Origin: Armatimonadota bacterium
GTDB lineage: Bacteria; Sysuimicrobiota; Sysuimicrobiia; Sysuimicrobiales; Sysuimicrobiaceae
Length of the DNA stretch: 51,805 nt
Direction of reading: 5' to 3'
Assembly (NCBI GenBank): GCA_025060455.1
Contig: JANXBY010000011.1
Coordinates: 1-51,805, forward strand
The notes under the pieces are model-generated. The model searched no databases, was not told where the DNA came from, and was given only the letters and a program-made list of their open reading frames with translations. Below are positions 6,883 through 48,276 of the stretch, one piece after another (position 1 is the first letter of the stretch; every line of letters begins with the position of its first letter). A program made the position numbers and the translations under genes.

Positions 6883-7499
6883 CGCCGGGCCCCCGCAGCT
6901 ACCCGCTCCCGGACGCCCTGCAACAGACGGCGCCCCACGTCCCCGCTCTTCTCAGGGTGGAACTGGAAGCCCACCACCCCAGCCGCCACCACCACCGCGG
7001 GGACGCGCACGCCGTAGTGCGTTTCCGCCACCACCCGGTCGGCGTCGGTTCGCACGTAGTACGAGTGCACGAAGTACACGTACTCCCCGGACGCCACGTG
7101 GGCGGTGACCGCAGACGGCTGGGTGAGCTCCAGCCGGTTCCAGCCCATGTGCGGGACCTTCACCCCCTCCGGGAGCCGGACCACCCGGCCCGGCAGCAGG
7201 CCGAGGCCCTGGTGCAGGCCGTCCTCCTCGCTCCACTCGAACAGCAGCTGCATGCCCAGGCACAGGCCCAGCAGCGGCCTCCCCTCGCCCACCCACCCCC
7301 GGAGGGCGTCCACGAAGCCCATCTGGGCCAGCCGCCGCACCGCCGGGCCGAACGCCCCCACACCAGGCAGCACGGCCAGGTCCGCGCCCTCCAGCTCCTC
7401 GGGTCGCTCTGCGCGTCTTACCTGAAAGCCCACGCGGGCGAGCGCGCGCTCCACGCTCCGCAGGTTCCCCGCTCCGTAGTCCACCACGGCCGCGCGCAA
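6879..7499 (-). CDS. hisH: Imidazole glycerol phosphate synthase, glutamine amidotransferase subunit
   Basis: 206 residues, class I glutamine amidotransferase fold. The nucleophile Cys is in [12 protein letters not shown], and the His-Glu pair is in [13 protein letters not shown]. The oxyanion strand PGVGAFG is also present. The start is TTG at 7499, 10 bp before the hisB stop, with GGAGG upstream. It supplies ammonia to HisF. Confidence 0.94.
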
Positions 7500-7509
7500 C
7501 CGAGGCCTC

Positions 7510-8073
7510 CTACAGCACGCCCTTGGTGGAGGGGTGGGCGCCGCGCTCCACCCGCACCGCCCGGCCCAACACGATCCCCACGCCCTTGAAGGCTGCCTCC
7601 GCCAGGTGGTGGCTGTTCCGGCCGTGCAACGCCACCACGTGCAGACCTACCCGCGCCCGCGAGACGAACGCCCGGAAGAACTCCTCCACCAGCTCTGCGC
7701 CAAACGAACCGATCAGCGGCGTGGGCCACCGGACGTCCCAGTGCAGGTAGGGCCGGCCGCTCACGTCCACCGCGCACAGCACCAGGGCGTCGTCCATCAC
7801 CGCGTGCAGACTGCTGAACCGTGCGATACCGTGCGCGTCGCCTAGGGCCTGAGCGAAGGCGTCGCCCAACACCCTCCCCACGTCCTCCACGGTGTGGTGG
7901 GGGTCCACCGCCACGTCCCCCGCGGCCTCCACCTCCAGGTCGAACCCCCCGTGGTGGGCCCATTGGGACAGCATATGGTCCAGGAACGGTACCCCCGTGC
8001 GCACGTGATGCGCGCCCTGGCCGTCCAGCCGCAGGCGAACCCGCACCTGCGTCTCCGAGGTGGTGCGTTCCAC
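7510..8073 (-). CDS. hisB: Imidazoleglycerol-phosphate dehydratase
   Basis: 187 residues, a monofunctional bacterial HisB a little shorter than usual. The two manganese-binding halves are clear: GVPFLDHMLSQWAHHGG with DPHHTVEDVG in the first half, and LHGRNSHHLAEAAFKG with the central HAVMDDALV in the second. It starts at a GTG soon after the hisC stop. It dehydrates imidazole glycerol phosphate to imidazole acetol phosphate. Confidence 0.95.
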   Translation of the reverse strand: MERTTSETQVRVRLRLDGQGAHHVRTGVPFLDHMLSQWAHHGGFDLEVEAAGDVAVDPHHTVEDVGRVLGDAFAQALGDAHGIARFSSLHAVMDDALVLCAVDVSGRPYLHWDVRWPTPLIGSFGAELVEEFFRAFVSRARVGLHVVALHGRNSHHLAEAAFKGVGIVLGRAVRVERGAHPSTKGVL

Positions 8074-33284: not shown

Positions 33285-35162
33285 CTACACCACCAGCCGG
33301 CACCACACCAACCAGACGGTGGCCGCCACCGCCCACCGCGGGAGCCCACGCAGGAAAACTACCGTCACGCCGACCAGCAGCGAACCCAACCAGGCCAGCA
33401 GCTGCGCCCTGCTCAAGATCTCCGTGGCCTCCACCGCCGCCAGGCGCCCGAGGATGGCCTCCGTCCATGGCACGAAGGGGATCGGTAGGAAAAGCGGGGC
33501 GTAGTAGAAGGCGAGGGTGCCCGAAGCCAGCAGAAGACCCCCTGCCAGGCGGAGGCCGGCGTGAGGAGGCTCCTCCCAGCGAACCACGCGGATGGCCAGG
33601 GGCCACAGGAGCACCGCCAGGGCGGGAGAACCCGCCTGCAGGCTTGGGACGGACAGGGCAGCGGGCAGCGCCGAGAAGTAGCCGGCAAGGAACACGCGGG
33701 CTGACGGGAACTCCGCCCTCCAGCCCGCCAGGAGGCGCGCCAGCAGGTGTGGCAGGCCCCAGAGGATCAGTCCGAGGAACGGGTGCAGGGTCGTAGCCCG
33801 TACCGCGACCCCTGGGTTCGACGCGAACCCGAAGCTGGTGGTTGCAATGCCCAGCAGGGCCACCGCCACCGCCGTCAGTCCTCCAGAGCCACCCGCCACG
33901 ACGCGGGCGGCCTGCTTGAACTCCTCCATCAGCACGGGCGCGGACGCCAAAACCAGTGGCCACCAGCCAGAAGGTTCCTCCACCTCCAGGGCCTGTCGCC
34001 ACGCCTGCGCTCCAGCCCAGTACACCAGCCCCACAAGCACCGCAGCGCTGAGGCCGTCTGCGGCCACGTCCACGGGATCCGAGGTCCTGGCCCCGCGCAC
34101 CACGGTGACCGCCCCGATCGCCAGCAGGAAGCTTCCGCAGGCGACGAGCCCTTCATTCCACGCGGCCCCGAAGAGCCGTCCCACAATACCCAGCAGTGGG
34201 GGCGGGAGGTGCTCCACGACCACTCCAGGACGCGCGGCGAGCACAGCGAACAAACCCCCGACGACCATGAAGGTCGCTCCGAGCCCGTAGGCCACCCCCC
34301 TGCGCCGGAGAGTCCCGCGGAGCCGTGTGGCCAGCCGGACCGCGACCTCCGATGCGTCGTCCACCAGGTCAGCTGCCAGCCACATCCAGAACAGCCCCAA
34401 GAACCCGAACAAGGCCTCGTAGCCCATCCGGAGCGCTTCTGCGAACCGGCCGGGACTTGTCCCGATCCCCCAACCGTACACTGCCAACATGCTCCAGAAC
34501 AGCGCCGCCCGCTCCGCGGGGAGCTCCACCAGACGTGTGCGCCACAGGAGCCAGCCCACAGCCAGGTACGCGAGCGTCCAGGTGCCCACGGACAGCCACA
34601 GGGGCTTCACCCACACCGGGCTCAAACGTCCTAGCAGGACTGCCCACGGGACCAGCCACGCCACGCTCCGACGCCCGGACCCCAGCCGGCGGCACTCGAC
34701 CGCGTACAGCACCCACGCCGGCAACAGGGCTACCCAGCGGGGCAGGGCCAGCACCGGCGGCAGCAACAGGTACCACAGGGCGTAGACACCGGCCAGCAGT
34801 CGGGCGAGGGGCGAGGACGTCCGGAGCTCCGTGAGGACGAGCGCGAACGACAGAGAGGCGGCCACCCCCAGCAGGGTCATGGTCGCGGGACCCCCGAGGA
34901 GCTGTTTCCGGGCGTCCGCGGGAGCAGCAAGCACCGCCGCGAAGCTTCCCAGGGAGGCGAGGAGAACTAGGAGGGCCAGCACACCCCATGGGCCCAGGCG
35001 CGCGAGCTGAGACAGGCCCGCCACCGTCGTCTGGAGGTCTTTCCACTTGACGGGAATGCCCAGGTATTGGGCGCCCGCCTCCAGGGCCCGGAACCCGAAT
35101 CGCAGGAGTCCTAACAGGCGACCCTTCGTCCTCTGCGCAATGCCGTCACCCGGTCGCGCCAA
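33285..35162 (-). CDS. Large polytopic membrane protein with a degenerate PrsW-like C-terminal domain
   Basis: 625 residues from a TTG at 35162 (GAGG 7 bp upstream), overlapping the end of the previous gene by 52 bp. The start is uncertain. About 14-16 hydrophobic helices. Residues about 405-480 look like a PrsW core: LMEEFKQA (412-418), FGFASNPGVAV (444-454) and WGLPHLLARLL with His472. If so, the first Glu of motif 1 and the Glu of motif 2 are missing, so it should not be a protease. It is encoded with the other degenerate PrsW paralogue. I do not recognise the first 400 residues. Confidence 0.6.
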   Translation of the reverse strand: MARPGDGIAQRTKGRLLGLLRFGFRALEAGAQYLGIPVKWKDLQTTVAGLSQLARLGPWGVLALLVLLASLGSFAAVLAAPADARKQLLGGPATMTLLGVAASLSFALVLTELRTSSPLARLLAGVYALWYLLLPPVLALPRWVALLPAWVLYAVECRRLGSGRRSVAWLVPWAVLLGRLSPVWVKPLWLSVGTWTLAYLAVGWLLWRTRLVELPAERAALFWSMLAVYGWGIGTSPGRFAEALRMGYEALFGFLGLFWMWLAADLVDDASEVAVRLATRLRGTLRRRGVAYGLGATFMVVGGLFAVLAARPGVVVEHLPPPLLGIVGRLFGAAWNEGLVACGSFLLAIGAVTVVRGARTSDPVDVAADGLSAAVLVGLVYWAGAQAWRQALEVEEPSGWWPLVLASAPVLMEEFKQAARVVAGGSGGLTAVAVALLGIATTSFGFASNPGVAVRATTLHPFLGLILWGLPHLLARLLAGWRAEFPSARVFLAGYFSALPAALSVPSLQAGSPALAVLLWPLAIRVVRWEEPPHAGLRLAGGLLLASGTLAFYYAPLFLPIPFVPWTEAILGRLAAVEATEILSRAQLLAWLGSLLVGVTVVFLRGLPRWAVAATVWLVWCRLVV

Positions 35163-36022
35163 GCCTGAACCTCTGCCTCCTTGCCTCGACCCCGAACCAA
35201 CCTCCACTTCGCCAGGGCCACCTGCAGCAGAGCCGAGCGTAGCGCGGGCGGGATCCCCCTTGTACCCCGAACCAGGACGAGGAGCTCTCCCTCGCTGAGG
35301 AGTCCCGCCTCCACCTCCTCCCGGAGGTACTGCTCGGCCGCACTCCGCCGGTACCGCCGTTCCGCCACCCACACACCGGCCAGGAGAGCCGCAGGGCTCC
35401 AGCTCAAAAGCAGCAGTCCAACAGCCGCCAGCTCGCCGCCGACACCGCTCCTCCAGGCCAGGAAGTTGAAACCCACGTAGGCCAAGTGCCCTGCCACCGA
35501 AGCCCCCATGCCGAGCACCGCGGAGAGTGACCTGGCGGGGGCCGACAGGACCTTCAAGTCCGCCCATCCCAGGGCAGCACCTGCGGCTGCGGTGAACACC
35601 CCTTGGGTCAGACCGCCACTCACCCACCGGAAGACTGCCCCCCAGTCTTCCACCGCCGACACCACCCAAAAGGCAGGCCCGGCGTATCCTACACCTACCA
35701 GACCTCCGGCCACGGCACCCTCTGCCGGGCGACTGAATCCGCCCACCGCGCTCCGCACGGCCAAAAGGATGACAGCTTTTACCACCTCGTCCACCACCGC
35801 GGATCCGACGGCCTCATGGAGCCCGGCCTCCCCCGCGAGGGGAGCGTGGCCGCCCCCGACCGAGGCGAGGCCCTGCCCGAACAGTCCGACGACACGGTGG
35901 GCGGCCGCGCCCGCCAGGAGAGTCAGGGCCGCTTTCGGCCAGTCCCACTCCGCACGCACGTGACACCAGAGGCCTGCCGCGTAGGCGACCAGGCAGAGGA
36001 GGTAGACCGCTGCCTCCAGCAC
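35111..36022 (-). CDS. Degenerate PrsW-family membrane protein (probable pseudoprotease)
   Basis: 303 residues. Aligned by motif to the intact PrsW proteins at 39-46 kb, it has VVDEVVKA (DExxK instead of EExxK, about 78-82), GVGYAGPAFW where the second-motif Glu is Ala, and GGLTQGVFTAAAGAALGWA where the third-motif His is Gln140. GHLAYVGFNF keeps the last His (179). The C-terminal soluble tail (about 230-303: REEVEAGLLSEGEL, then a Lys/Arg-rich helix) matches the tail of the intact paralogues. The family fold is kept but the catalytic set is broken. It starts at a GTG, 27 bp from a repeat box shared with the divergent regulator. Confidence 0.65.
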   Translation of the reverse strand: MLEAAVYLLCLVAYAAGLWCHVRAEWDWPKAALTLLAGAAAHRVVGLFGQGLASVGGGHAPLAGEAGLHEAVGSAVVDEVVKAVILLAVRSAVGGFSRPAEGAVAGGLVGVGYAGPAFWVVSAVEDWGAVFRWVSGGLTQGVFTAAAGAALGWADLKVLSAPARSLSAVLGMGASVAGHLAYVGFNFLAWRSGVGGELAAVGLLLLSWSPAALLAGVWVAERRYRRSAAEQYLREEVEAGLLSEGELLVLVRGTRGIPPALRSALLQVALAKWRLVRGRGKEAEVQAWRDRVTALRRGRRVAC

Positions 36023-36048: not shown

Positions 36049-36066
36049 CTTAAAATCGGTTTAAAG
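36049..36066. promoter_or_regulatory. 11-bp direct-repeat box in the divergent 36022/36099 promoter region
   Basis: CTTAAAATCGGTTTAAAG: TTAA at 36050 and 36061. It lies 26 bp from the minus-strand start (36022) and 32 bp from the plus-strand start (36099), so it can serve both genes. Confidence 0.65.
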
Positions 36067-36098
36067 TGCCCGCCTCACATGGGCGCGCGGAGGGGAGC

Positions 36099-38816
36099 AT
36101 GACGCGTCCGCAGTGGGTGTGGAGGACCCGCTTGGTGGACCGCCTGCCAAGACAGGCTGGGTACGTGGTGTGGCTGGAGGCGCCTTACGGGTACGGCAAG
36201 ACCACCCTACTCCGGCAGTGGTCGGAGACCCTGGAGAGCGAAGGGTGGTCGGTGGTGTGGGCCAGCGCCGCCTCGGGGCCGATCCTCGAGCAGGTGGCTC
36301 GCGCCCTCAAACTACCCGGCTCGCCTCCCTGGCCCTTTGTCCAGGAAGTCCTGGGCAGCCGGCCCACCCTGTTAATCCTGGACGACCTGGCCGCAGACAC
36401 ACCTGTACCGTTGCGCCTTCCCTCCGGCTCCTTGACCCTCGGCTTGGCGAGCCGCGGGCAACTGGGCTGGCCCGAGCTCCCACGGGCCCGCGCGGAGGGA
36501 CGGTTGATCCACCTGACTCCGGAGGATCTCCGGTTCACCCTCCTCGAAACTCAACAGGTTCTTGCGGAAGGCCGCACGGCGTTTGAAGTGTGGGAACGCA
36601 CCGGGGGATGGCCGATCGCCGTGCACTTAGCGGCCCTCACGGGCACGCTGGACTTCCGGCGTGCTCTCGCGGAGGGCGTTCGGGACTCCCTGCGTGACGA
36701 GGAGTGGCAGGCCATGCTCGCCCTGGCCGCCGTCCCCGCCCTGCCTGAATCCCTACAGGACGGTGCCGTCCAGCGTCTGTTGGAGGCAGGCTTTGTCCGG
36801 AAGACGCCCCACGGCGTGTCGCTGCACGCCGTGTTTGGCGAGGTGCTCCTGGACGAACTCCTGCCCTCCGTGCAGCAAGCCATCAGGAGGATGAGCCCGC
36901 ACCTCCCCCCCGAGCTGCGGGCCGAGGCTTACTTCCGAGCGAAACTCTGGCAGGACACCGAACAGCTCCTGGAGTGCCCCGACGCCCTCGAACTGGCCTC
37001 CAAGGCTCCGTCCTGGGTGATCCGCTGGTGTCGGGCCCTGCCCGGCCTCGGCGGCCCGTGGCGCAGACTCGCCCACGGCATGGCCCTCTGCCTTCTGGGC
37101 CGTCTTTCCCAAGCGCTGCCCCGCCTGCGGTCCCTCGCCGAGCAGTCAGAGGGATCCCACCCAGAGGTGGCCATCCAGGCCTGGGGGCTGACTGCTTACT
37201 ACGCTCCTGAGGTGAACCTCGATCTCGCCCTCGAAGCGGCTGATCGTGGCGGACAGTTGGTGGACAGGGTCTCACCCCGCCTTGCGGCCCGATTTCTGAA
37301 CTGGACCTGCTGGCCCCTGTGGAAGGCCGGCGACCTGGAGCGCTTCGCGGCCGCACTGGAAAAAGCCCGCCGTCTCCTCCCCGCAGACGATCCGTACGTG
37401 TTCCACCCCATCGGTTACAACCTGGCCTTCCTCCGCTGGCAGCGGGACGGGGATCTGGACTACTACCTCGCCTACAACCGCCAGACCGCGGAGCTCCAGG
37501 AGGCCGAGCGGTCGCACAACCTCCCCCTCACCCTCCTGCAGATCGGCCGCTTACTGGTCCTGACCGGGCAGCGGGAGGAAGCGGTGCAGTGCTTCCAGCG
37601 CGCCCGGGCCAACCCGGGTCAGAACTTCTGGGCGGAGACCATCGCAGCAGCGTGGCAAGCGTGCCTCGAGCAAGACCTGGCCCCTTTCCAGCGGCTGGTG
37701 ACCTTGGCCGAGACCGCGGAGAACCCCGAGCTGGAGGACATCGTCCGGGGCCTTTGGGCCCGGACCCTCAGGGAGCTCGGACACCTAGCTGACTCCCTGC
37801 GGGTGAGCCACCCGGCGCGGGGCTTTTGGACAGCCCTGGAGTCTGCTCTCGCCCTGTGGGCGGGGGGCCGTACCACGGAGGCCTTGGCTCAACTCCCGAG
37901 CGCCCCTCGGGACCGGGAAGAGCGCGCCTACTTCTATGCGGCGCGCTTCCGGATCCTCAGGGAGGAGCGCGACCTGGATGAGTTGGTGAACCTCACCTCC
38001 CTAGGCCCTCAGATTCTCCCGGCTCTGGTCCCGCTCCCGGAGCTACCGCGGAGCCGGCCTGAGGTCGCCGACTCCTATCCCGTCCGCGAGGTCCTTGCCG
38101 CGGCGTGGAAAGAGGCGGTGCAGCGGAGGCTCCGGGAAGTCCCCCCACTTGAGGTGGAACTCCTCGGGCAGTACCGCGTCCTGCGCCTGGGAGAGGAGGT
38201 GTCTCTGTCTCCCACGGCCCGGGCCCTGCTGGTCCTCCTCATCTTGGGACTCAGCCGGGACACCATCGCGGACCAACTGTGGCCGGATGCACGGCCCGCG
38301 CAGGCCCAGAACAACTTACACGTACACATGCACCACCTCCGGAGGGCGGTGCAGCCCTGGGGCCTTCCAACCTACCTCACCGCCCGCGGACTCCGCAACG
38401 TGCAGGTAGATCTGTGGACGCTGCAGGATGCCCTCCGGCGGTCCGACGCACCCTCGGTGCTCCGCCTGTACCGAGAGCCGGTGGCGCCTGGCGTGGACCT
38501 GCCAGCGGTGGACGAGGTCCGCTACCAGCTCCGTCGCCAGGTCGTGGAATGCCTGTACCGGGCAGGACGCCAGGGGACGCCGGAAGAGGGCATCCGCGTG
38601 CTCGAGCGCGTTCTCGAACTCGACCCCCTGCACGAGGCCGCCCTCCAGTGCCTCGTGCGCCACCTCCTCGCCGCCGGGCGGCCAAGAGATGCCCTGGAGG
38701 CGTACCGGGTCTTTGCAGCACGGCTCCGAGAGGAACTGGACGCCGAGCCGGCTCCGGACACCTCCGCCCTCCTGCAGCCCCTCACCCGACCCACCCGCTC
38801 TCGCCGGAGCCGTTAA
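36099..38816 (+). CDS. STAND-type ATPase regulator with C-terminal SARP (OmpR-like wHTH + BTAD) domain
   Basis: 905 residues from the ATG at 36099 (GGAGGGGAGC upstream). Residues 1-250 form a P-loop ATPase: Walker A APYGYGKTT at 28-36 and Walker B LLILDD at 91-96, like MalT/LuxR-type STAND regulators. A long TPR-like helical region follows (about 290-670). From about 684 the protein has an OmpR-like winged helix (SPTARALLVLLILGLSRDTI, then ADQLWPD), and from about 771 a bacterial transcriptional activator domain. SARP-type winged helices bind direct repeats with 11-bp spacing, and such a repeat lies in its own promoter. It is the only transcription factor in the 28-48 kb block, so it is a candidate reader of all these boxes. 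Confidence 0.87.
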   Translation: MTRPQWVWRTRLVDRLPRQAGYVVWLEAPYGYGKTTLLRQWSETLESEGWSVVWASAASGPILEQVARALKLPGSPPWPFVQEVLGSRPTLLILDDLAADTPVPLRLPSGSLTLGLASRGQLGWPELPRARAEGRLIHLTPEDLRFTLLETQQVLAEGRTAFEVWERTGGWPIAVHLAALTGTLDFRRALAEGVRDSLRDEEWQAMLALAAVPALPESLQDGAVQRLLEAGFVRKTPHGVSLHAVFGEVLLDELLPSVQQAIRRMSPHLPPELRAEAYFRAKLWQDTEQLLECPDALELASKAPSWVIRWCRALPGLGGPWRRLAHGMALCLLGRLSQALPRLRSLAEQSEGSHPEVAIQAWGLTAYYAPEVNLDLALEAADRGGQLVDRVSPRLAARFLNWTCWPLWKAGDLERFAAALEKARRLLPADDPYVFHPIGYNLAFLRWQRDGDLDYYLAYNRQTAELQEAERSHNLPLTLLQIGRLLVLTGQREEAVQCFQRARANPGQNFWAETIAAAWQACLEQDLAPFQRLVTLAETAENPELEDIVRGLWARTLRELGHLADSLRVSHPARGFWTALESALALWAGGRTTEALAQLPSAPRDREERAYFYAARFRILREERDLDELVNLTSLGPQILPALVPLPELPRSRPEVADSYPVREVLAAAWKEAVQRRLREVPPLEVELLGQYRVLRLGEEVSLSPTARALLVLLILGLSRDTIADQLWPDARPAQAQNNLHVHMHHLRRAVQPWGLPTYLTARGLRNVQVDLWTLQDALRRSDAPSVLRLYREPVAPGVDLPAVDEVRYQLRRQVVECLYRAGRQGTPEEGIRVLERVLELDPLHEAALQCLVRHLLAAGRPRDALEAYRVFAARLREELDAEPAPDTSALLQPLTRPTRSRRSR

Positions 38817-38955: not shown

Positions 38956-39156
38956 GTGGTGGTTCTGGTGGGTCGCCGTCGCACGGTTCTTCTTGAAGCT
39001 GCCCACCCCTCTGACCCCCTGGGGGGCCTGGGCTGGAGCTCGCTCGGCCTTCTGATGTGGCTCGCGGCGACCGGAGTGAACACCGATGCCGTCGTGCTCG
39101 GCAAGGGCCCCTGGCTGCGAAACGGCGCAGGGGACTCTTTGGTCGCGGGGAGGTGA
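38956..39156 (+). CDS. Possible small membrane protein ahead of the first PrsW gene
   Basis: 66 residues from a GTG at 38956; the frame is open further upstream, so the start is not fixed. The later codons have third positions as GC-rich as true genes nearby, and the stop is 4 bp before the PrsW start. One possible helix is LGLLMWLAATGVNTDAVVL. No clear ribosome site is seen. It may be a real leader-encoded protein or chance. Confidence 0.3.
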   Translation: MVVLVGRRRTVLLEAAHPSDPLGGLGWSSLGLLMWLAATGVNTDAVVLGKGPWLRNGAGDSLVAGR

Positions 39157-39160
39157 ACCG

Positions 39161-40207
39161 ATGCCGTTGTTGACCGTTCCGCCTCGCCCGTTCTCACCGC
39201 TTCCCATCGAGGCGTCGCCACCTCCAAAATTCATCGACGCCACCGCTTCGGGAGGAGCGGGGGGCTTGGCTGTCGGGTTGCTGCTGGTCGTGGCGCTGAC
39301 GGCTCTGTACGTGGCGGTGTTGTACTGGGCGGATCGCCACGAGAAGGAGCCCTCCAGCGTTCTCGGGGCAGCGCTCCTTGGCGGGGCCATCGCCGCGCCC
39401 GTGCTCTCGATGGTGCTGGAGCGCCTCGCCGACATCCGCATGTCCGTGTACCCCGCCGCCTTCCACGCCCTCAACGCGGCCTTCTTCGGCCCCAACCCGG
39501 CAGGGGCGGTCATCGAGGAGGGGACCAAGGCGCTGGTGATCCTCGGCCTGTTCCGCCTGCTCCCCCGCGAGTTCGACGGAACCCTGGACGGCGTGGTGTA
39601 CGGGGGCGTCGTGGGAGCGGGCTTCGCCCTAGCGGAGTCAGCCGTCTACCTGTGGGACCTCGCGCGGGTTGGCGCCGGTGGTCTGGGCCTGGGGGCGATG
39701 TTCGGGATCCTCGTGACCGGACTCACCCACAGCGCCTTCGGAGCGCTCTTCGGCGCCTCTCTGGGTGCGGTACGGGAGTTTGGGCTCACGGGGTCGGCCG
39801 CGTGGTGGCTTCCCGTGGGCGGGTTCGCCCTGGCTGGTCTGTACCACGCCGCGTATGACGCCCTGGCGGCCATCGCCGGTGCGGGGACGGGCCCAGGCGC
39901 CCTGGTAGTGGTCGCCCGCCAGCTCGCGGACTGGGCCGGGGTGATCGCCCTCGGGGTCATCGTCATCTGGGCCCTCGGACACGAGCGGAACGTGATCGCG
40001 CGCTACCTGCCCGTGGAAGCCCAGGAAGGACACATCCCCCGGGAGTATGCAGAAGCCGCCGCCAACCGTCGGTGGGCAGATGTACCCCGGGCTGCGCGTC
40101 AGCCCCTCGCCGAACTCGCCTTCGCCCGGCGCCGACTGGAGCGAGGGCTCGCCAGCGAGGCAGAGCTCGAGGTGTACCGGAACCGGATCCGCGAGGTGGC
40201 CCGATGA
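39161..40207 (+). CDS. PrsW-family intramembrane metalloprotease (copy 1)
   Basis: 348 residues from an ATG with GGAGG upstream. All PrsW motifs are intact: DRHEKEP (58-64), EEGTK (119-123), GAGFALAES with Glu159, LTHSAFGALFGASLG with His190, and YHAAYD (His229, Asp233). About eight helices. The N-terminal 35 residues are Pro-rich. In Bacillus, PrsW makes the first cut in the anti-sigma factor RsiW; the substrate here is unknown. The tail is shorter than in copies 2-4 (AELAFARRRLERG). Its stop overlaps the next gene's ATG (ATGA), so the two are translationally coupled. Confidence 0.88.
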   Translation: MPLLTVPPRPFSPLPIEASPPPKFIDATASGGAGGLAVGLLLVVALTALYVAVLYWADRHEKEPSSVLGAALLGGAIAAPVLSMVLERLADIRMSVYPAAFHALNAAFFGPNPAGAVIEEGTKALVILGLFRLLPREFDGTLDGVVYGGVVGAGFALAESAVYLWDLARVGAGGLGLGAMFGILVTGLTHSAFGALFGASLGAVREFGLTGSAAWWLPVGGFALAGLYHAAYDALAAIAGAGTGPGALVVVARQLADWAGVIALGVIVIWALGHERNVIARYLPVEAQEGHIPREYAEAAANRRWADVPRAARQPLAELAFARRRLERGLASEAELEVYRNRIREVAR

Positions 40208-40812
40208 ACCGGAACCTCCTGATCGGCGGCGGGCTGGGCTGTGGTTGCTTGACCCTCCTGGCCATCGTGGCGGTGGTTGCGGGCATCGTGGTGTACGCGG
40301 CGCGACCGCAGCCACGTCCTGTGCCGGCCCCTGCCCCTCAACCTGCTACGCAACCTGCGCCTACCCCGGCCCCTCCAACCGGGCCTTCACCGACTGCACC
40401 GTCGGACGCGAGAGCGTGCCCGCAGACCCCCCCTCAAGGTCCTGAGGCTCTTGGAAAGGGCGTCTGCCCCCAGCAGGCCCCAGGGGTCGAGGTCGTCGGT
40501 GGAATGACGGTCCGACTCGGACCGGACGGAATGCCGACGGGTGCCGCGGGGGTGTTCCGTGTGGGCGAGAAGGTGGGCGTTGATTACCAGGTCGCCCGCA
40601 TGGATCGCCAGGTCGTGCGGCTTTTCGTCCGCATCGAGTCCCAGGACCGGGTGATCCCCGTGGTCAACCCCGAACCCCTCGAAGGTCCGGGTCGGCACCT
40701 GTACAGGCTGGACACCACCTCGGGTTCGCCGGGTCTGTACGCCTTCGTGCTGGCCGTGCCCCAGGGAGGGCAGCCGGCGGTGGTCCTCCTAGTGCCTTTC
40801 GCCCTGCAGTAG
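40204..40812 (+). CDS. Type II single-pass membrane protein with Pro-rich stalk (partner of PrsW copy 1)
   Basis: 202 residues. A six-residue cytoplasmic end is followed by a helix at about 7-33 with a Cys-Gly-Cys near its start. A Pro/Ala/Gln stalk (about 34-68) precedes an outer domain of about 130 residues with strands such as GVFRVGEKVGVDYQV and VVRLFVRIES. The family is not recognised. The 4-bp overlap with PrsW copy 1 suggests that the products work together, either as substrate and protease or as a sensor complex. The cytoplasmic part is too short for an anti-sigma domain. Confidence 0.65.
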   Translation: MNRNLLIGGGLGCGCLTLLAIVAVVAGIVVYAARPQPRPVPAPAPQPATQPAPTPAPPTGPSPTAPSDARACPQTPPQGPEALGKGVCPQQAPGVEVVGGMTVRLGPDGMPTGAAGVFRVGEKVGVDYQVARMDRQVVRLFVRIESQDRVIPVVNPEPLEGPGRHLYRLDTTSGSPGLYAFVLAVPQGGQPAVVLLVPFALQ

Positions 40813-40825
40813 CGGAGGAGGCGTC

Positions 40826-41989
40826 ATGACCTCGAGCGCGGGCCGCGTATCCCACGGGGCGGACACCTTCCTGAAGGCCGCCGGCCTCGTGGGTGTTGGA
40901 TTCGTGCTGTTCGTCCTGGCCGTCCTCCAGATGCTGGTGTTCTTCCAGGCCGCGGGGGGGCTCGGGAAGTTCCTCATGGCCTCCATCGCCGCCCTGTCCG
41001 TGGTTCCCTTCTACACGGGCCTCATCCTCCTACTGGATCGGCACGAGAAGGAACCTGGCTGGCTCCTGCTAGCTGCCCTCCTGTGGGGCGGAGTGGTCGC
41101 CACGTTCTTCAGCCTCATCTTCAACACGATCGGGGGGGCGATCCTGGAGGCGCTTTTCGGCCCGACGCTCGGCCGCCAGCTGACAGCCCCCCTCGTGGCA
41201 CCGGTGGTGGAGGAGACCGCCAAGGGGCTTGCGGTCCTCCTCATCTTCCTGCTGTGGCGCCGGGAGTTCACGAACCTTGTGGACGGCCTCGTGTACGGAG
41301 CTCTGGCAGGTCTCGGGTTTGCTGCCACGGAGAACGTCCTCTACTTTGCGCGGTTCATCCGGGAAGGGGGCCTGGGTGGACTGACCCTCGGCTTCGTGCT
41401 CCGCGCGGTCTTAGGAGGGCTGAGTCACTCCGTGTACACGGCGTGTACGGGTGCCGGATTCGGCTACGCGCGAGAGAGCCGCGGTCCGGTTCGTTTCCTC
41501 GCCCCCTTGCTCGGCTACTTCGCCGCCATGTTCCTACACTTTCTGTGGAACCTGTCCGCCTCCTTCGCCGTCCCCGCGGCGGTGCGGGCGGCGGGCGGCG
41601 CCGGACTTTTGGTCATCCCCGCCATGGCCCTGATCATCGAGTGGATCCCTCTGCTCCTCCTCGTCGCCCTCGCGTACTTCGCGTGGCGGCGAGAGGTCGT
41701 AGCCATCCGGGAGGGGCTCGCGGAAGAGGCAGCCTCGGGCAACATCCCACCCGACCACACCGAGCTGCTCACGAAGCCCCGCGAGCGTAGCCGGCGGCTG
41801 TGGTCAGCCCTGACGCTGAAGGGACCTGGAGCCTGGAACACCCTCCGGCAGCTCTACGACGCGGAGGTAGATCTTGCCTTTGCCCTCTGGCGGCAGAAGC
41901 ACGGCGAGCCGGTCACCCGGGACGTGGAGATTCTGAGAGAACGCGTCCGGCTCCTCCGACAGCGCGCAGAGGCTCTCGGGGTCGGATGA
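40826..41989 (+). CDS. PrsW-family intramembrane metalloprotease (copy 2)
   Basis: 387 residues, ATG with GGAGGAGG upstream. Motifs: DRHEKEPGW (71-79), VEETAKG with Glu129/Glu130 and Lys133, GLGFAATENVLYF with Glu169, LSHSVYTACTGAGFGYA with His201, and FLHFLWN with His238 and Asn242. Eight or more helices. A cytoplasmic tail of about 85 residues (RSRRLWSALTLKGPGAWNTL, then RQLYDAEVDLAFALWRQ) is shared with copies 3 and 4 and absent from the B. subtilis protein as I know it. It overlaps the next gene by 4 bp (ATGA). Confidence 0.92.
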   Translation: MTSSAGRVSHGADTFLKAAGLVGVGFVLFVLAVLQMLVFFQAAGGLGKFLMASIAALSVVPFYTGLILLLDRHEKEPGWLLLAALLWGGVVATFFSLIFNTIGGAILEALFGPTLGRQLTAPLVAPVVEETAKGLAVLLIFLLWRREFTNLVDGLVYGALAGLGFAATENVLYFARFIREGGLGGLTLGFVLRAVLGGLSHSVYTACTGAGFGYARESRGPVRFLAPLLGYFAAMFLHFLWNLSASFAVPAAVRAAGGAGLLVIPAMALIIEWIPLLLLVALAYFAWRREVVAIREGLAEEAASGNIPPDHTELLTKPRERSRRLWSALTLKGPGAWNTLRQLYDAEVDLAFALWRQKHGEPVTRDVEILRERVRLLRQRAEALGVG

Positions 41990-42771
41990 GGGTTCTGTGG
42001 AAATCACAGAGGGGGTTCAGTACCTGGGCCGTGGTGGCAGTTCTGGCGGTCCTGGTGACGGGGTGTTTCGTGCTGCTGGGCATCGGCGGAGTCGCCTGGT
42101 ACCTGCTGGCGCAGCGGCCAACCCCGCCGCCCCCCGCCCCTCAGCCGACCGCTCCCCCACTGCAGCCTTCCGGCCCACCGCCGGGTCCCCTGCCCGCCCT
42201 GCAGCCCACACCCGCGGCTCCGCCGACTCCCGACCCGCGCACCGGCCCCTCGCCTGCGTCCCTCTCGTTGTACATTGACCCACAAGGTGAGTTCTGCGTC
42301 CGCTACCCTGCGGGCTGGCAGGTGCTCCCACACCGGGCCGGGGTGGCCTTCGCACCCCCCGGAGAAGACCCACAGAACGGCACCTCGGCCTTCTTCACCC
42401 GCCTCCTCGGGGTACAGGGTCGCATCGTCCCCGCTCGTGAAGACCTCGAAAGCTTCACCGCCCAGATGCGCCAGCGCCACCCGGACTTTCGCGTGGACGC
42501 TCTGTCCGTCCGCCCCATGCCCCAGGACAGCGAGTCCGCTTTCCTGCAGGCGTCCTGGACCAACGCTCGGGGAGAGCCCATGCGGGGCGTCCTCATCGGC
42601 CTATACCTCCACTCCGCGGTCGCCCGCTTCACGCTGAAACAGTGGAAGACCTTCCAGTCTCAGCAGGTAGCGTGGTCCAGCCTCGAGCCCGTGTTCCAGC
42701 AGATGGCGCGGAGCTTCACACCCCTCCGGCAAGGCCAGCAGGAAGGGAAGCCTGAGCCAGCCTGCCAGTAG
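41986..42771 (+). CDS. Type II membrane protein with Pro-rich stalk and PsbP/Mog1-like outer domain (partner of PrsW copy 2)
   Basis: 261 residues. A short cytoplasmic end (RVLWKSQRG) precedes a helix at about 13-38, then a stalk of about 50 residues made of Pro, Ala, Gln and Thr. The outer domain begins SLYIDPQGEFCVRYPAGWQV, the usual opening of PsbP/Mog1-like (DUF1795-type) domains, and continues to the C-terminus. It is coupled to PrsW copy 2 by a 4-bp overlap. It has the same architecture as the 40204 product but a different outer domain. Confidence 0.7.
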   Translation: MRVLWKSQRGFSTWAVVAVLAVLVTGCFVLLGIGGVAWYLLAQRPTPPPPAPQPTAPPLQPSGPPPGPLPALQPTPAAPPTPDPRTGPSPASLSLYIDPQGEFCVRYPAGWQVLPHRAGVAFAPPGEDPQNGTSAFFTRLLGVQGRIVPAREDLESFTAQMRQRHPDFRVDALSVRPMPQDSESAFLQASWTNARGEPMRGVLIGLYLHSAVARFTLKQWKTFQSQQVAWSSLEPVFQQMARSFTPLRQGQQEGKPEPACQ

Positions 42772-42779
42772 GAGGCGTC

Positions 42780-43121
42780 GTGGTTGTCTGGTCCACCGTG
42801 ATCGTCGGGCTGGCGCTGCTGACCCCTGCAGCACCGGAATGGGCGCTGTACGCGTACCCCGCGGCCCGTTCCTCCGCCGCCTACCCCCGCGGCTGGCAGG
42901 TCCGGGCGGGTCCCGTGGAGGAGTCGGTCGTCCGCTACTGCGGCCGTCTGCATGGGGGAATCGGCTCGGCCCCCTTCGTCGCCCCGTTTGCCCGCCCGCC
43001 GGCGCACGGGGCCGGAACCCCGGCCCTCCCTCTCCTCTCCGAGTCCCCCGGGACCGACTCGCCGTGCGCGGGGGCGACCCTCAGGCGGATCTTGCGGGAG
43101 TCCCAGTTGGTGGGAGGTTAG
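42780..43121 (+). CDS. Small secreted protein, possibly a truncated PsbP/Mog1-like relative
   Basis: 113 residues from a GTG with GGAGG 4 bp upstream. A signal peptide covers about residues 1-22. The segment YAYPAARSSAAYPRGWQV resembles the opening of the outer domains encoded at 41986 and 44269, but the rest is short and Pro-rich and does not look like a complete domain. It may be a decayed or shortened copy. PrsW copy 3 starts 2 bp after its stop. Confidence 0.5.
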   Translation: MVVWSTVIVGLALLTPAAPEWALYAYPAARSSAAYPRGWQVRAGPVEESVVRYCGRLHGGIGSAPFVAPFARPPAHGAGTPALPLLSESPGTDSPCAGATLRRILRESQLVGG

Positions 43122-43123
43122 CT

Positions 43124-44272
43124 GTGCAGTCTCTTCCTCCTCGGCCCGCCTGGCACAACCCGTACCTGGCCCTGCAGCTGGGCCTTGCAGCCCTCTTTGG
43201 ACTCCTGGGACTCCTGGTCCTCTTCGTCCTCCTCGTGGCGACCCGCGGTGTCGTTCCCTTCCTGCTCGCCACTCTGGCCTCCGTACTCCCCGTCCCCATC
43301 TACGCCACCCTGATCCTCTGGGTGGACCGGCATGAGAAGGAGCCGGGGTGGCTGTTGCTTTCGGCCTTCTTCTGGGGGTCCACCGTGGCCGTGCTGTTCG
43401 CCCTTGTGTTCAACAACCTGGCCGGCTCGATTCTCGAAGCCTTGTTCGGCCCCCTGTGGGCCTTGCGGTTCACGATCGGTGTGGTGGCACCTGTCGTGGA
43501 GGAAACCGCCAAGGGTCTTGCGCTCGTTGGGATGGCCGCCTTCCTGCGGGACGAGTTCGACAACCTCACGGACGGCCTCGTGTACGGCGCGCTGGTCGGA
43601 CTGGGTTTCGGGGTCGCGGAGAACGTCTTGTACCTGGGGCGAGCCTTTGCCGCCGGTGGATTTGCCGCCCTCACCCTCCTCTTCCTGGTCCGAGTGATCG
43701 TGCTGGGCCTGATGCATTCCATCTGGACCGGGTGCACTGGAGCCGCCCTCGGCTACGCCCGGGAGCATGGGGGGGCCGCCCGCTTTGTGGCTCCTCCTGC
43801 GGGATACCTCGCCGCGGTGTTCTTGCACGCGCTCTGGAACTCTACGAACCTCGGGGCCGAAGCCATGGTTGGCGGCCGCGTACTCCTCCTCCTCCCCCTA
43901 CTGTTCGGCGTCATCCTCCTTCCCCCGCTGCTGCTCCTGGGAGTCCTGGCCTTCCTAGCGGAACGCAGGGAGCGCGAACTCGTTCGTACGCACCTGCTGG
44001 ACCTGGTGTCTGCCGGAATCCTGACCGAGGACGAGCTGCGTGCCGCCGCCACCACCCGCATCAAGTCGCGCCGCCTGTGGGAGGCCTTTACCCGCAAGGG
44101 TCCAAGGGGATGGCTGGTGCTCCGGCAGTTCTACGATACGGTGGCGGAGCTGGCCTTCATCCGCTGGCGCCGGTCCCGCAGCCGGCCGGCGGGGTCGGAC
44201 GAAGACTTCCTCCGGCAGCGCCTCGCAGACCTCCGGAGCCGCCTGGAGGCCTTAGCCATCCCCTGGACGTGA
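43124..44272 (+). CDS. PrsW-family intramembrane metalloprotease (copy 3)
   Basis: 382 residues from a GTG with GGAGG 6 bp upstream; the open frame further upstream overlaps another gene and is not used. Motifs: VDRHEKEPGW (68-77), VVEETAKG with Glu126/Glu127 and Lys130, GLGFGVAENVLYL with Glu166, LMHSIWTGCTGAALGYA with His198, and FLHALWN with His235 and Asn239. The cytoplasmic tail (SRRLWEAFTRKGPRGWLVL, then RQFYDTVAELAFIRWRR) matches copies 2 and 4. It overlaps the next gene by 4 bp (GTGA). Confidence 0.92.
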   Translation: MQSLPPRPAWHNPYLALQLGLAALFGLLGLLVLFVLLVATRGVVPFLLATLASVLPVPIYATLILWVDRHEKEPGWLLLSAFFWGSTVAVLFALVFNNLAGSILEALFGPLWALRFTIGVVAPVVEETAKGLALVGMAAFLRDEFDNLTDGLVYGALVGLGFGVAENVLYLGRAFAAGGFAALTLLFLVRVIVLGLMHSIWTGCTGAALGYAREHGGAARFVAPPAGYLAAVFLHALWNSTNLGAEAMVGGRVLLLLPLLFGVILLPPLLLLGVLAFLAERRERELVRTHLLDLVSAGILTEDELRAAATTRIKSRRLWEAFTRKGPRGWLVLRQFYDTVAELAFIRWRRSRSRPAGSDEDFLRQRLADLRSRLEALAIPWT

Positions 44273-44790
44273 GCGGTCGCCCTGTGGTGTTGCTCCTGAC
44301 CCTCCTGGCCGCCCAGGCCGTCGACCCCCGGGCTCTCCAGCTCCAGCCGCACGTGGACCGGGCGTGGGGCTTCCGGATCCTGCGGCCCGCTCCCTGGAAG
44401 GTCCACCGGGCGGAGGACGTGGGGCTGGTGGTGTTTTACCGGTCCGGCCCCTTCCGGCCGCCGCGGTTTGTCGTCCTCCCTCAGCTCCTGGCGCAGGGAC
44501 GGCTACCGCCCCACCAGGCTGCCCGCACCGTATTGCAGGACCTGATGGGGCTGGACCGACACCCCGGATTGCGCTGGGGCTTGGTCCGCGCGACCGCCTC
44601 CCAGGCGGAAGGGCAAGCCCGCTGGCGCGACCGAAGTTCCACGGTGCGGATGGTGTTCTGGCTCCGCGTCCACCCCGGCGGCCACGCGACCCAAGTCACC
44701 TTCCTGGCGGGGGAAGCCACGGACCAGGAGTTCCCCGGTCTGTGGCCTCTGTTCCGGCGCATGCAGTTGTCCTACGCCCCCGAGCGCTGA
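44269..44790 (+). CDS. Secreted PsbP/Mog1-like domain protein (partner of PrsW copy 3)
   Basis: 173 residues from a GTG overlapping the PrsW copy 3 stop. A signal peptide or N-terminal anchor lies at about residues 5-17 (PVVLLLTLLAAQA). The body has WGFRILRPAPWKVHRAEDVG near the start and WLRVHPGGHATQVTFLAG later, like PsbP/Mog1-type beta domains. There is no stalk. It lies between PrsW copies 3 and 4 in one operon. Confidence 0.65.
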   Translation: MSGRPVVLLLTLLAAQAVDPRALQLQPHVDRAWGFRILRPAPWKVHRAEDVGLVVFYRSGPFRPPRFVVLPQLLAQGRLPPHQAARTVLQDLMGLDRHPGLRWGLVRATASQAEGQARWRDRSSTVRMVFWLRVHPGGHATQVTFLAGEATDQEFPGLWPLFRRMQLSYAPER

Positions 44791-44796
44791 CTCCCG

Positions 44797-45957
44797 ATGC
44801 CCCCGGCCGTGGACCTGGCACCGTTCCCGTTGGCCCGCTGGGCTGGAGGCTTGGCGGTCGCCGGTCTGATCTTCATCAGCGGGGTCCTCAACCTCGCGCT
44901 GTCCCTGAGCTCAGCCGGCAGCCTGTCCTCCTTCCTCTTGAGCGCCGCCGCCGCCGTGTCCGTAGTTCCCCTGTACACGTCGCTCATCCTGTGGATCGAC
45001 CGCCACGAGCGTGAACCCGGATGGCTGCTCCTAGCCGCCTTCTTCTGGGGTGCCGCGGTAGCCACCTTGCTCGCCGGAGTAGCCAACACCGTGGGGGCCA
45101 TGCTGTTGCGGGCAGCCCTAGGTCCGGACCTCGCCCGGAGGCTCACACCTCCCTTCCTGGCGCCCCTGACCGAGGAGACCGCCAAAGGCGCAGCGGTGCT
45201 GCTGATCGCTGTGCTCTGGCGTCACGAGTTCCACAACACCCTGGACGGCGTGGTCTATGGTGCACTGGCCGGCCTGGGGTTCGCCGTGGTGGAGAACGTG
45301 GACTACTTCCTCCGAGCCCTCAGACAGGAAGGCCTCGCAGGTCTCGCCGCCTCCTTCTACGCCCGTGCCCTGGTGGGCGGGCTCGGCCACTCCGCCTACA
45401 CTGCCTGCACCGGCGCAGGGATCGGCTACGCGCGGGAGTCAGGCACCCGCGCCGCCCGCCTGGCGGGCCCTCTCTTGGGGTTCGCGTGTGCGGTGTTCCT
45501 CCACTTCGCGTGGAACTTCAGCGCAACCTACCTCGACCCCTGGCTTCGCCGTCTCACGGGCGGCAACCCATGGTTGGACCTCCTGGTGGTCCTACCCCTC
45601 ACCTGGGGCGTCCTGGAAGCCCCCGCGTGGGTCACCCTGGGAGTCATCGCCTACCTCTCTTGGAAGCGCGAAGTCTGGCTCGTCCGCACCCACCTCGCGG
45701 ACGAGGACCCGTCCACGACCCCGGACCTCCAGGAGCTCCTGTCACCACGCCGGCGCCTCCGCAGGCTCTGGCACGCCCTGCTCACAGGCGGCGTGGGCAG
45801 TTGGTGGGACCTCCGAACGTACTACGACCTGTGCATCGATTTCGCCTTTGCCAAGTTCGACGTCCGGCGGGGAGAACGCCCTGCCCACGACCTGGAAGCG
45901 TACCGAGCTCGCCTCCAGGAGCTCCGGCGCCGCATCGGCAGGTGGGGATACGTCTGA
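44797..45957 (+). CDS. PrsW-family intramembrane metalloprotease (copy 4)
   Basis: 386 residues, ATG 6 bp after the previous stop. Motifs: IDRHEREPGW (68-77), LTEETAKG with Glu126/Glu127 and Lys130, GLGFAVVENVDYF with Glu166, LGHSAYTACTGAGIGYA with His198, and FLHFAWN with His236 and Asn240. The tail (RRLWHALLTGGVGSWWDLR, then TYYDLCIDFAFAKFD) is homologous to copies 2 and 3. It is closest to copy 2 by eye. It ends the operon and, unlike copies 1-3, has no partner gene immediately after it. Confidence 0.92.
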   Translation: MPPAVDLAPFPLARWAGGLAVAGLIFISGVLNLALSLSSAGSLSSFLLSAAAAVSVVPLYTSLILWIDRHEREPGWLLLAAFFWGAAVATLLAGVANTVGAMLLRAALGPDLARRLTPPFLAPLTEETAKGAAVLLIAVLWRHEFHNTLDGVVYGALAGLGFAVVENVDYFLRALRQEGLAGLAASFYARALVGGLGHSAYTACTGAGIGYARESGTRAARLAGPLLGFACAVFLHFAWNFSATYLDPWLRRLTGGNPWLDLLVVLPLTWGVLEAPAWVTLGVIAYLSWKREVWLVRTHLADEDPSTTPDLQELLSPRRRLRRLWHALLTGGVGSWWDLRTYYDLCIDFAFAKFDVRRGERPAHDLEAYRARLQELRRRIGRWGYV

Positions 45958-47724: not shown

Positions 47725-48276
47725 TCACGGGACCACCTGCACCTGGTAACGGCGCAGGGTCTGTACGATCCGGACCTTCTGCGGATCTCCCAGGCGGACG
47801 AAGTCGAACTTGAGGAGGCGCGTACGAGGGCTGTAGGCCACCACGAAGATAGCCGTCTCCGTGACCAGGATGTAGCCCCGTTCATTCAGCACCCCGTCCC
47901 CGTCCAGGTCCATGTCCACCAAGCCCCGGCGCAGCGGGAGGATCGCCCGCGGGTCCTCCCGTTTCACGGGGATCCGCAGGACGGGCTTGTCGGGATCCAC
48001 GGGGCACAGCCCCGCGTCCAGACCGGTGGGCTGCCCGGAGGGGTCCAGGATCTCACAGCGGGGGCTGAGAGTAAGGTTCTGCGCGGCATTCCGGTACCGC
48101 CCCCCCGGCACCCGCTCAAGCCGGAAGAAGACCTTGGACGGCACCCCTGACGTCCGCACCACGACCTCCCCCCGCAGCTCCCGCTCCCACCCGCCCACGG
48201 TTCTGACCTCGTAGGCCCTGGCTGCTAGACCCACCGGAAAGGAGGCCAGGAAGAGCGGAACCAACAGGAGCCGCAT
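47725..48276 (-). CDS. Secreted protein with a Ca-binding-like DxDxDG loop
   Basis: 183 residues. A signal peptide covers about residues 1-19 (MRLLLVPLFLASFPVGLAA). The mature part has LVDMDLDGDGVLNERG, a loop of the DxDxDG type found in dockerins and EF-hand-like proteins, near residue 120. The family is not recognised. It is a single gene on the minus strand, and its start lies 27 bp from a repeat box, so it probably belongs to the same regulon. Confidence 0.65.
   Translation of the reverse strand: MRLLLVPLFLASFPVGLAARAYEVRTVGGWERELRGEVVVRTSGVPSKVFFRLERVPGGRYRNAAQNLTLSPRCEILDPSGQPTGLDAGLCPVDPDKPVLRIPVKREDPRAILPLRRGLVDMDLDGDGVLNERGYILVTETAIFVVAYSPRTRLLKFDFVRLGDPQKVRIVQTLRRYQVQVVP

Follow-up and report, generated by a model that had tools for sequence, protein, structure and literature searches.

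PrsW intramembrane proteases are widespread, and the literature that we found holds one well-documented role for them: cleavage of RsiW in Bacillus, where PrsW is listed as the site-1 protease (PMC10202637) and a site-2 protease is also involved. The family further includes proteins in which PrsW is fused to toxin, PilZ, cNMP, FHA, or Zn-ribbon domains (Zhang et al., 2012; PMC3482391), serving as a membrane module joined to other domains, for which a role in processing or export has been proposed; the available portion of that survey names no PsbP-like PrsW partner, dead PrsW, or tandem PrsW operon. Other intramembrane proteases, the rhombosortase for VesB of Vibrio cholerae (PMC11389362) and myxosortase (PMC11980579), act on exported proteins, a secreted serine protease among them. 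The locus described here, an operon of four PrsW genes and their partner genes in an Armatimonadota bacterium, resembles each of these systems in part.

The operon (39161-45957, all genes on the + strand) lies in a 51,805-nucleotide stretch (the window), which is the complete contig C26 of a 2.26 Mb assembly that is 95% complete. Its kin among the genomes compared make up a single order of seven families, beyond which only the domain is shared; with the high GC, this suggests that the host belongs to Sysuimicrobiota (CSP1-3), a phylum with one class and one order (PMC11604079). Its four PrsW genes alternate with genes for outside-facing proteins. PrsW1 to PrsW4 (W1-W4) belong to the same peptidase family as B. 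subtilis PrsW and share its four motifs; RsiW has the layout common to partners 1 and 2, with the N-terminus inside, a single transmembrane (TM) helix, and the C-terminus outside; and a site-2 protease is also encoded in the host genome (PF02163 match, 4.4e-62, contig C34). Unlike the RsiW/σW system, the operon has four paralogues plus a dead fifth, W1-W4 reach only 38-48 bits with the NCBIfam PrsW equivalog model NF033739 (cut-off 225), neither a sigma nor an anti-sigma gene lies nearby, and none of the partners has a cytosolic effector domain. While rhombosortase and myxosortase serve C-terminal tags, the partners have N-terminal anchors. We propose that an active PrsW and the product of the gene immediately following it associate as a complex in the membrane, with the partner acting as a sensor or gate, a reading that we consider roughly an even call.

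Judged from their sequences, the four PrsW genes are evidently real. PrsW1 (39161-40207; 348 residues), PrsW2 (40826-41989; 387 residues), PrsW3 (43124-44272; 382 residues, GTG start), and PrsW4 (44797-45957; 386 residues) score 89.6, 165.5, 151.5, and 163.0 bits, respectively, against PF13367 (MEROPS M82; cut-off 23.5); none of the four, and no orthologue checked, has lost EExxK, the motif-2 Glu, or either His. A crude hydropathy scan finds 5-8 hydrophobic segments in each, against about eight TM helices expected for the family. Nonsynonymous divergence (dN) is 0.14-0.30 for the PrsW genes and 0.13-0.64 for the partner genes, well below the synonymous divergence (dS) of 0.8-2.5, indicating purifying selection on every intact gene of the operon; gene starts are choices made in the present analysis. 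Four intact PrsW genes in a row had been read from the letters alone, at the same coordinates, in a first-pass annotation, which also held that bacteria usually have one or two. The survey agrees: PrsW occurs in 59 of 343 genomes from outside the order, as one copy in 51, two in 7, and three in 1, and nowhere do two copies lie close together on one contig. In the host genome, all four PF13367 matches above the cut-off fall within the operon.

The first-pass annotation overlooked a fifth paralogue. PrsW0 (W0; 35111-36022, - strand), assigned by alignment, motif table, and tree, is transcribed divergently from the operon, and each of the family's five genomes that carry the cluster has it. None of these five copies keeps the motif-2 Glu, and one or both His residues are changed too; in the window, the motif-3 His is replaced by Gln. 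The W0 of the window is too diverged for the Pfam model, and its orthologue in genome G003 matches PF13367 at 4.8e-9. W0 orthologues form a single tree group (100/99), sister to the W1 group (100/99).

The partners fall into two structural types. Partner 2 (41986-42771; 261 residues), partner 3 (44269-44790; 173 residues, GTG start), and a gene between them, partner 2b (42780-43121; 113 residues), align as one family sharing an FxVxYPxGW motif. Partner 2 has a cytosolic tail of about 12 residues, a TM helix (13-42), a Pro-rich linker, and an ectodomain (93-245). Its AlphaFold2 model (predicted local distance difference test score, pLDDT, 82.9) retrieves in Foldseek, at E<=1e-3, mostly PsbP, LpqN, MTC28, Apa, and Mog1p entries, and a profile of partners 2, 2b, and 3 matches CyanoP (2xb3; E=0.0013). 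With the Pfam PsbP model, partners 2 and 3 of the window have no significant match; the sole passing copy is the intact 2b of G003 (L042; 29.7 bits, cut-off 23.5). Taken together, the models and profiles assign partners 2, 3, and 2b to the PsbP/Mog1 fold. Mycobacterial LpqN, MTC28, and Apa share this fold with partner 2 by structure search, and MTC28 is described as proline-rich, resembling the partner 2 linker; however, they are anchored differently, and the literature searched holds no link between them and PrsW. The N-terminus of partner 3 resembles a signal peptide. Partner 1 (40204-40812; 202 residues), by alignment and in an AlphaFold2 model (pLDDT 79.8; weak Foldseek matches), combines a very short cytosolic tail, a single TM helix with an invariant GCGCL, a Pro-rich linker, and an outer domain that appears to be an Ig-like β sandwich, unlike the PsbP-type partners. 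GCGCL was also considered as a genome-wide sorting tag and rejected: the pattern, with its leucine written as CTN, is no commoner than a reversed control. The anchored or secreted β-type outside domains foreseen in the first-pass annotation are thus borne out, but its separate small secreted protein is not: the 113-residue gene is a degraded partner copy that lacks about 65 middle residues relative to its 178-residue orthologues (L041:12410-12943; L042:12521-13054). The idea of a separate functional peptide was dropped, as an internally deleted partner copy fits this alignment. An assembly error could be its cause, but the deletion is in frame and both ends match the orthologues.

The alternating gene order recurs in four relatives (G001, G003, G004, and G006) and partly in a member of another family, G017. 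The consensus, downstream of a SARP/BTAD regulator, is W1-p1-W2-p2-[2b]-W3-p3-[p1b]-W4, in which 2b, p1b, and W4 are each present in some genomes only; W4 is seen only in the window genome and in G001, and the G003 contig stops short of its position. Clusters of 3-4 intact PrsW genes occur in five of the six reasonably complete genomes of the family (G000, G001, G003, G004, and G006); in the sixth, G005 (sister genus, 100% complete), no PrsW, partners, or neighbouring 625-residue protein were found. Which PrsW does a partner belong to? The first-pass annotation described the genes as interleaved, which holds, and was neutral on pairing. A 4-base overlap joins the PrsW stop codon to the partner start at W1 in six of six genomes, at W2 in four of six, and at W3 in three of three, while partners and the next PrsW are separated by 2-58 bases and never overlap; each partner thus goes with the preceding PrsW. 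In the tree, W1 (86/88), W3 (100/100), and W4 (100/100) each form one group, as does W0, suggesting that the arrangement is older than the genera. The W2 genes of the family form one 100/100 clade, and the G017 W2 branches outside the W2, W3, and W4 of the family, at a fork drawn open; this position suggests that W3 and W4 were duplicated from a W2-like gene in the family lineage. In G006 (L044:13123-15758), two large proteins of unknown family replace PrsW4, with partner 3 between them and overlapping the first by 4 bases.

A related pairing exists in which PrsW is dead; like W0, the dead homologues are without the motif-2 Glu and at least one of the His residues. In G017, W1-p1-W2-p2 is followed by a Trypsin_2 gene and then by a fused dead PrsW::PsbP-like gene. 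Within the window's order, a dead PrsW with a PsbP/DcrB-like part accompanies Trypsin_2 in G017, G026, and G011, as a fusion to a TM-anchored domain in the first two and as two separate genes in the third. In G088, a dead PrsW beside Trypsin_2 is fused to an ectodomain that the PsbP profile does not recognize. A search with a dead-PrsW profile (A4) over 301 genomes of the phylum of G102 returned 19 loci (L121, L122, and L151-L167) in 18 genomes and four families. In all 19, the motif-2 Glu is absent, the last His is replaced by Asn, and a TM-anchored PsbP-like part follows as the next gene or as a fused C-terminus, recognized by profile at 18 loci (L121 and L122 belonged to its own training set) and by eye at L159; at L167, the two parts are called as one fused gene. 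Pfam places Trypsin_2 beside L161, L162, L163, L165, and L166, thermolysin-type M4 peptidases beside L108/L122 and L151, and Emfourin, an M4 inhibitor family, beside L108, L151, and L155 (L155 below its cut-off). Other neighbours resemble these by the start of their sequence only. Adding G017, G026, G011, and G088 brings the total to 23 dead-PrsW loci with a PsbP-like gene or fused ectodomain, the G088 ectodomain being unverified. This dead-PrsW family (the 19 loci together with L045:11241-13807, L048:5201-7818, L051:2924-5530, and L125), with its paired or fused TM-anchored ectodomain (PsbP-like where recognized), commonly beside Trypsin_2 or M4/Emfourin, is possibly a separate, undescribed system. 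PsbP next to PrsW is not a general rule: in about 57 PrsW loci of other lineages, it was met only in G102 (dead) and at L039, whose PsbP-like gene was in the search profile; eight further loci had no usable PrsW gene call. At L039 (Armatimonadaceae), the PsbP-like gene (7142-7771) sits just upstream of a PrsW2-like gene of the active type, whose frame is called in two pieces.

How might such pairs work? In the proposed complex, PrsW would be the catalytic subunit within the bilayer, and the partner, usually tethered by one TM helix, would act as an outer sensor or client-binding gate that controls the timing or the targets of the protease. Clients would be envelope or exported proteins that have a TM segment or a signal anchor; the operon would comprise duplicated protease-partner pairs with diverged outer domains, presumably controlled by the adjacent SARP/BTAD-type regulator; and dead W0 might serve as a non-catalytic competitor or scaffold. 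Several observations lend the complex a plausibility just short of even: (i) PrsW genes overlap their partners; (ii) the paralogues form coherent tree groups; (iii) no intact PsbP-family genes turned up in the host genome beyond the two in the operon; (iv) PrsW and PsbP-like parts are fused in some genomes; (v) the pairing persists at 19 dead loci; and (vi) the cytosolic tails of the partners are short (about 10 residues). Retention of the pair without catalysis favours an accessory subunit over a mere substrate. Other findings weigh against the complex: partner 3 has the look of a secreted product whose signal can be cleaved off, not of an anchored subunit; partner 1 differs from the others in fold; the window partners show weak similarity to the PsbP-like domains found at dead-PrsW loci (hhalign probability 83%), and the tree separates the PrsW domains of these two sets; and G011 and G016 also have PsbP-like relatives at a distance from PrsW.

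A broader version of this proposal extends to the dead forms, many of which lie beside secreted trypsin-like or thermolysin-like proteases. In γ-secretase, APH-1 is non-catalytic and stands alongside nicastrin, a subunit with a large ectodomain, a layout that resembles a dead PrsW with its ectodomain partner; this is an analogy only, as nicastrin is unrelated to PsbP. APH-1 is distant kin of the PrsW/CPBP group (Zhang et al., 2012; PMC3482391). A PrsW-type domain with a tethered PsbP-like (Mog1-fold) subunit may thus be a general, undescribed membrane device present in several phyla, active or dead, the dead form guarding, presenting, or exporting the neighbouring secreted protease, as a bacterial counterpart of the APH-1/nicastrin layout; we regard this as possible, with the balance tipped against it. 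A co-encoded ectodomain partner would give the PrsW family an accessory-subunit hypothesis, dead copies that keep their partner offer natural variation that separates a binding role from catalysis, and their frequent secreted-protease company suggests a first client candidate. Both the four-PrsW/partner operon and the dead-PrsW pairing appear to be undescribed: word searches of the open-access literature found no tandem PrsW operon and no PrsW with a PsbP-like partner, in line with the first-pass annotation, which knew of no such system; PrsW and PsbP occur together in one paper, but in separate contexts, and searches for PrsW homologues and emfourin gave no such operon.

Could the partners simply be what PrsW cuts? 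Each PrsW would cleave its cognate partner, a type II single-pass protein, close to the membrane's outer face, shedding the ectodomain on a signal, and the site-2 protease would possibly clear the stub. The RsiW-like topology of partners 1 and 2, the strict adjacency and coupling of PrsW and partner, the faster evolution of partners than of proteases, and the presence of a site-2 protease family member in the genome all fit this picture. However, dead PrsW proteins retain such a partner, which argues against a substrate as its main role; cleavage would free no cytosolic effector from tails of about 10 residues; and partner 3 seems to be secreted and unanchored. We consider this explanation unlikely. 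An anti-sigma variant of it was discarded on the same short tails and the lack of a nearby sigma gene: Sigma70_r2 has no match on the window contig and eight elsewhere in the genome. The RsiW model therefore fails for the operon, as the first-pass annotation had anticipated; an unlinked anti-sigma substrate may be encoded elsewhere in the genome.

If not as substrates, partners could help to handle other proteins: the pairs might act in exporting, maturing, or restraining secreted proteins, chiefly proteases, with the PrsW-like domain holding or processing a client, the PsbP-like ectodomain binding it outside, and the client gene of the window lost or located elsewhere. Such a function would explain Trypsin_2 beside the pair in G017, G026, G011, G088, and several genomes of the phylum of G102, thermolysin M4 and Emfourin at other loci, and the single gene run of G017, where active W1/W2 pairs, Trypsin_2, and the dead-PrsW::PsbP fusion meet; the PrsW-dependent export route suggested from domain fusions (PMC3482391) would also accord with it. 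Yet no secreted protease is recognized beside the window cluster or in its four close relatives (neighbours scanned in part), and W1-W4 are no more than distant relatives of the dead-PrsW group. We regard this explanation as distinctly improbable. Still more doubtful is plain tandem duplication, with four redundant housekeeping PrsW enzymes acting on unrelated proteins and the genes between them as passengers. W2, W3, and W4 did arise by duplication within the lineage, a partner copy has degenerated, and the absence of the cluster from the complete G005 marks it as dispensable, but across two genera the partners keep their order and their overlap and stay under purifying selection, and PrsW + PsbP pairing recurs in other lineages. 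The first-pass annotation had staked its case on partners being conserved beside PrsW in relatives, and they occupy the same places in all four. Finally, Pfam and NCBIfam recognize no toxin or immunity domain in the operon, which thus does not qualify as a PrsW polymorphic toxin locus.

The surroundings of the cluster are partly conserved. Upstream, a STAND/BTAD (SARP- and MalT-like) transcription regulator (36066-38816, + strand; Pfam BTAD, 6.4e-11) has orthologues of 61-66% identity at the corresponding position of G001, G003, G004, and G006; a STAND/BTAD regulator always precedes the cluster in the family, and in G017 another large regulator-like protein takes its place. In the four relatives, an intact gene for a membrane protein of about 120 residues lies between the regulator and PrsW1; the window has an apparent remnant (39019-39123, + strand), GGLGWSSLGLLMWLAATGVNT..GKGPWLRN, matched by eye to L041:8281-8631. 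Together with the deleted 2b, this remnant suggests that the cluster is eroding in the window genome. A polytopic 625-residue membrane protein (33285-35162, - strand) with roughly 12 hydrophobic segments, which matches no Pfam family, is conserved beside W0 and is missing, along with the cluster, from G005; a 628-residue protein downstream in G017 was considered as its homologue and gave no match. The 625-residue protein and a secreted protein of 183 residues (47725-48276, - strand) are conserved on opposite sides of the cluster.

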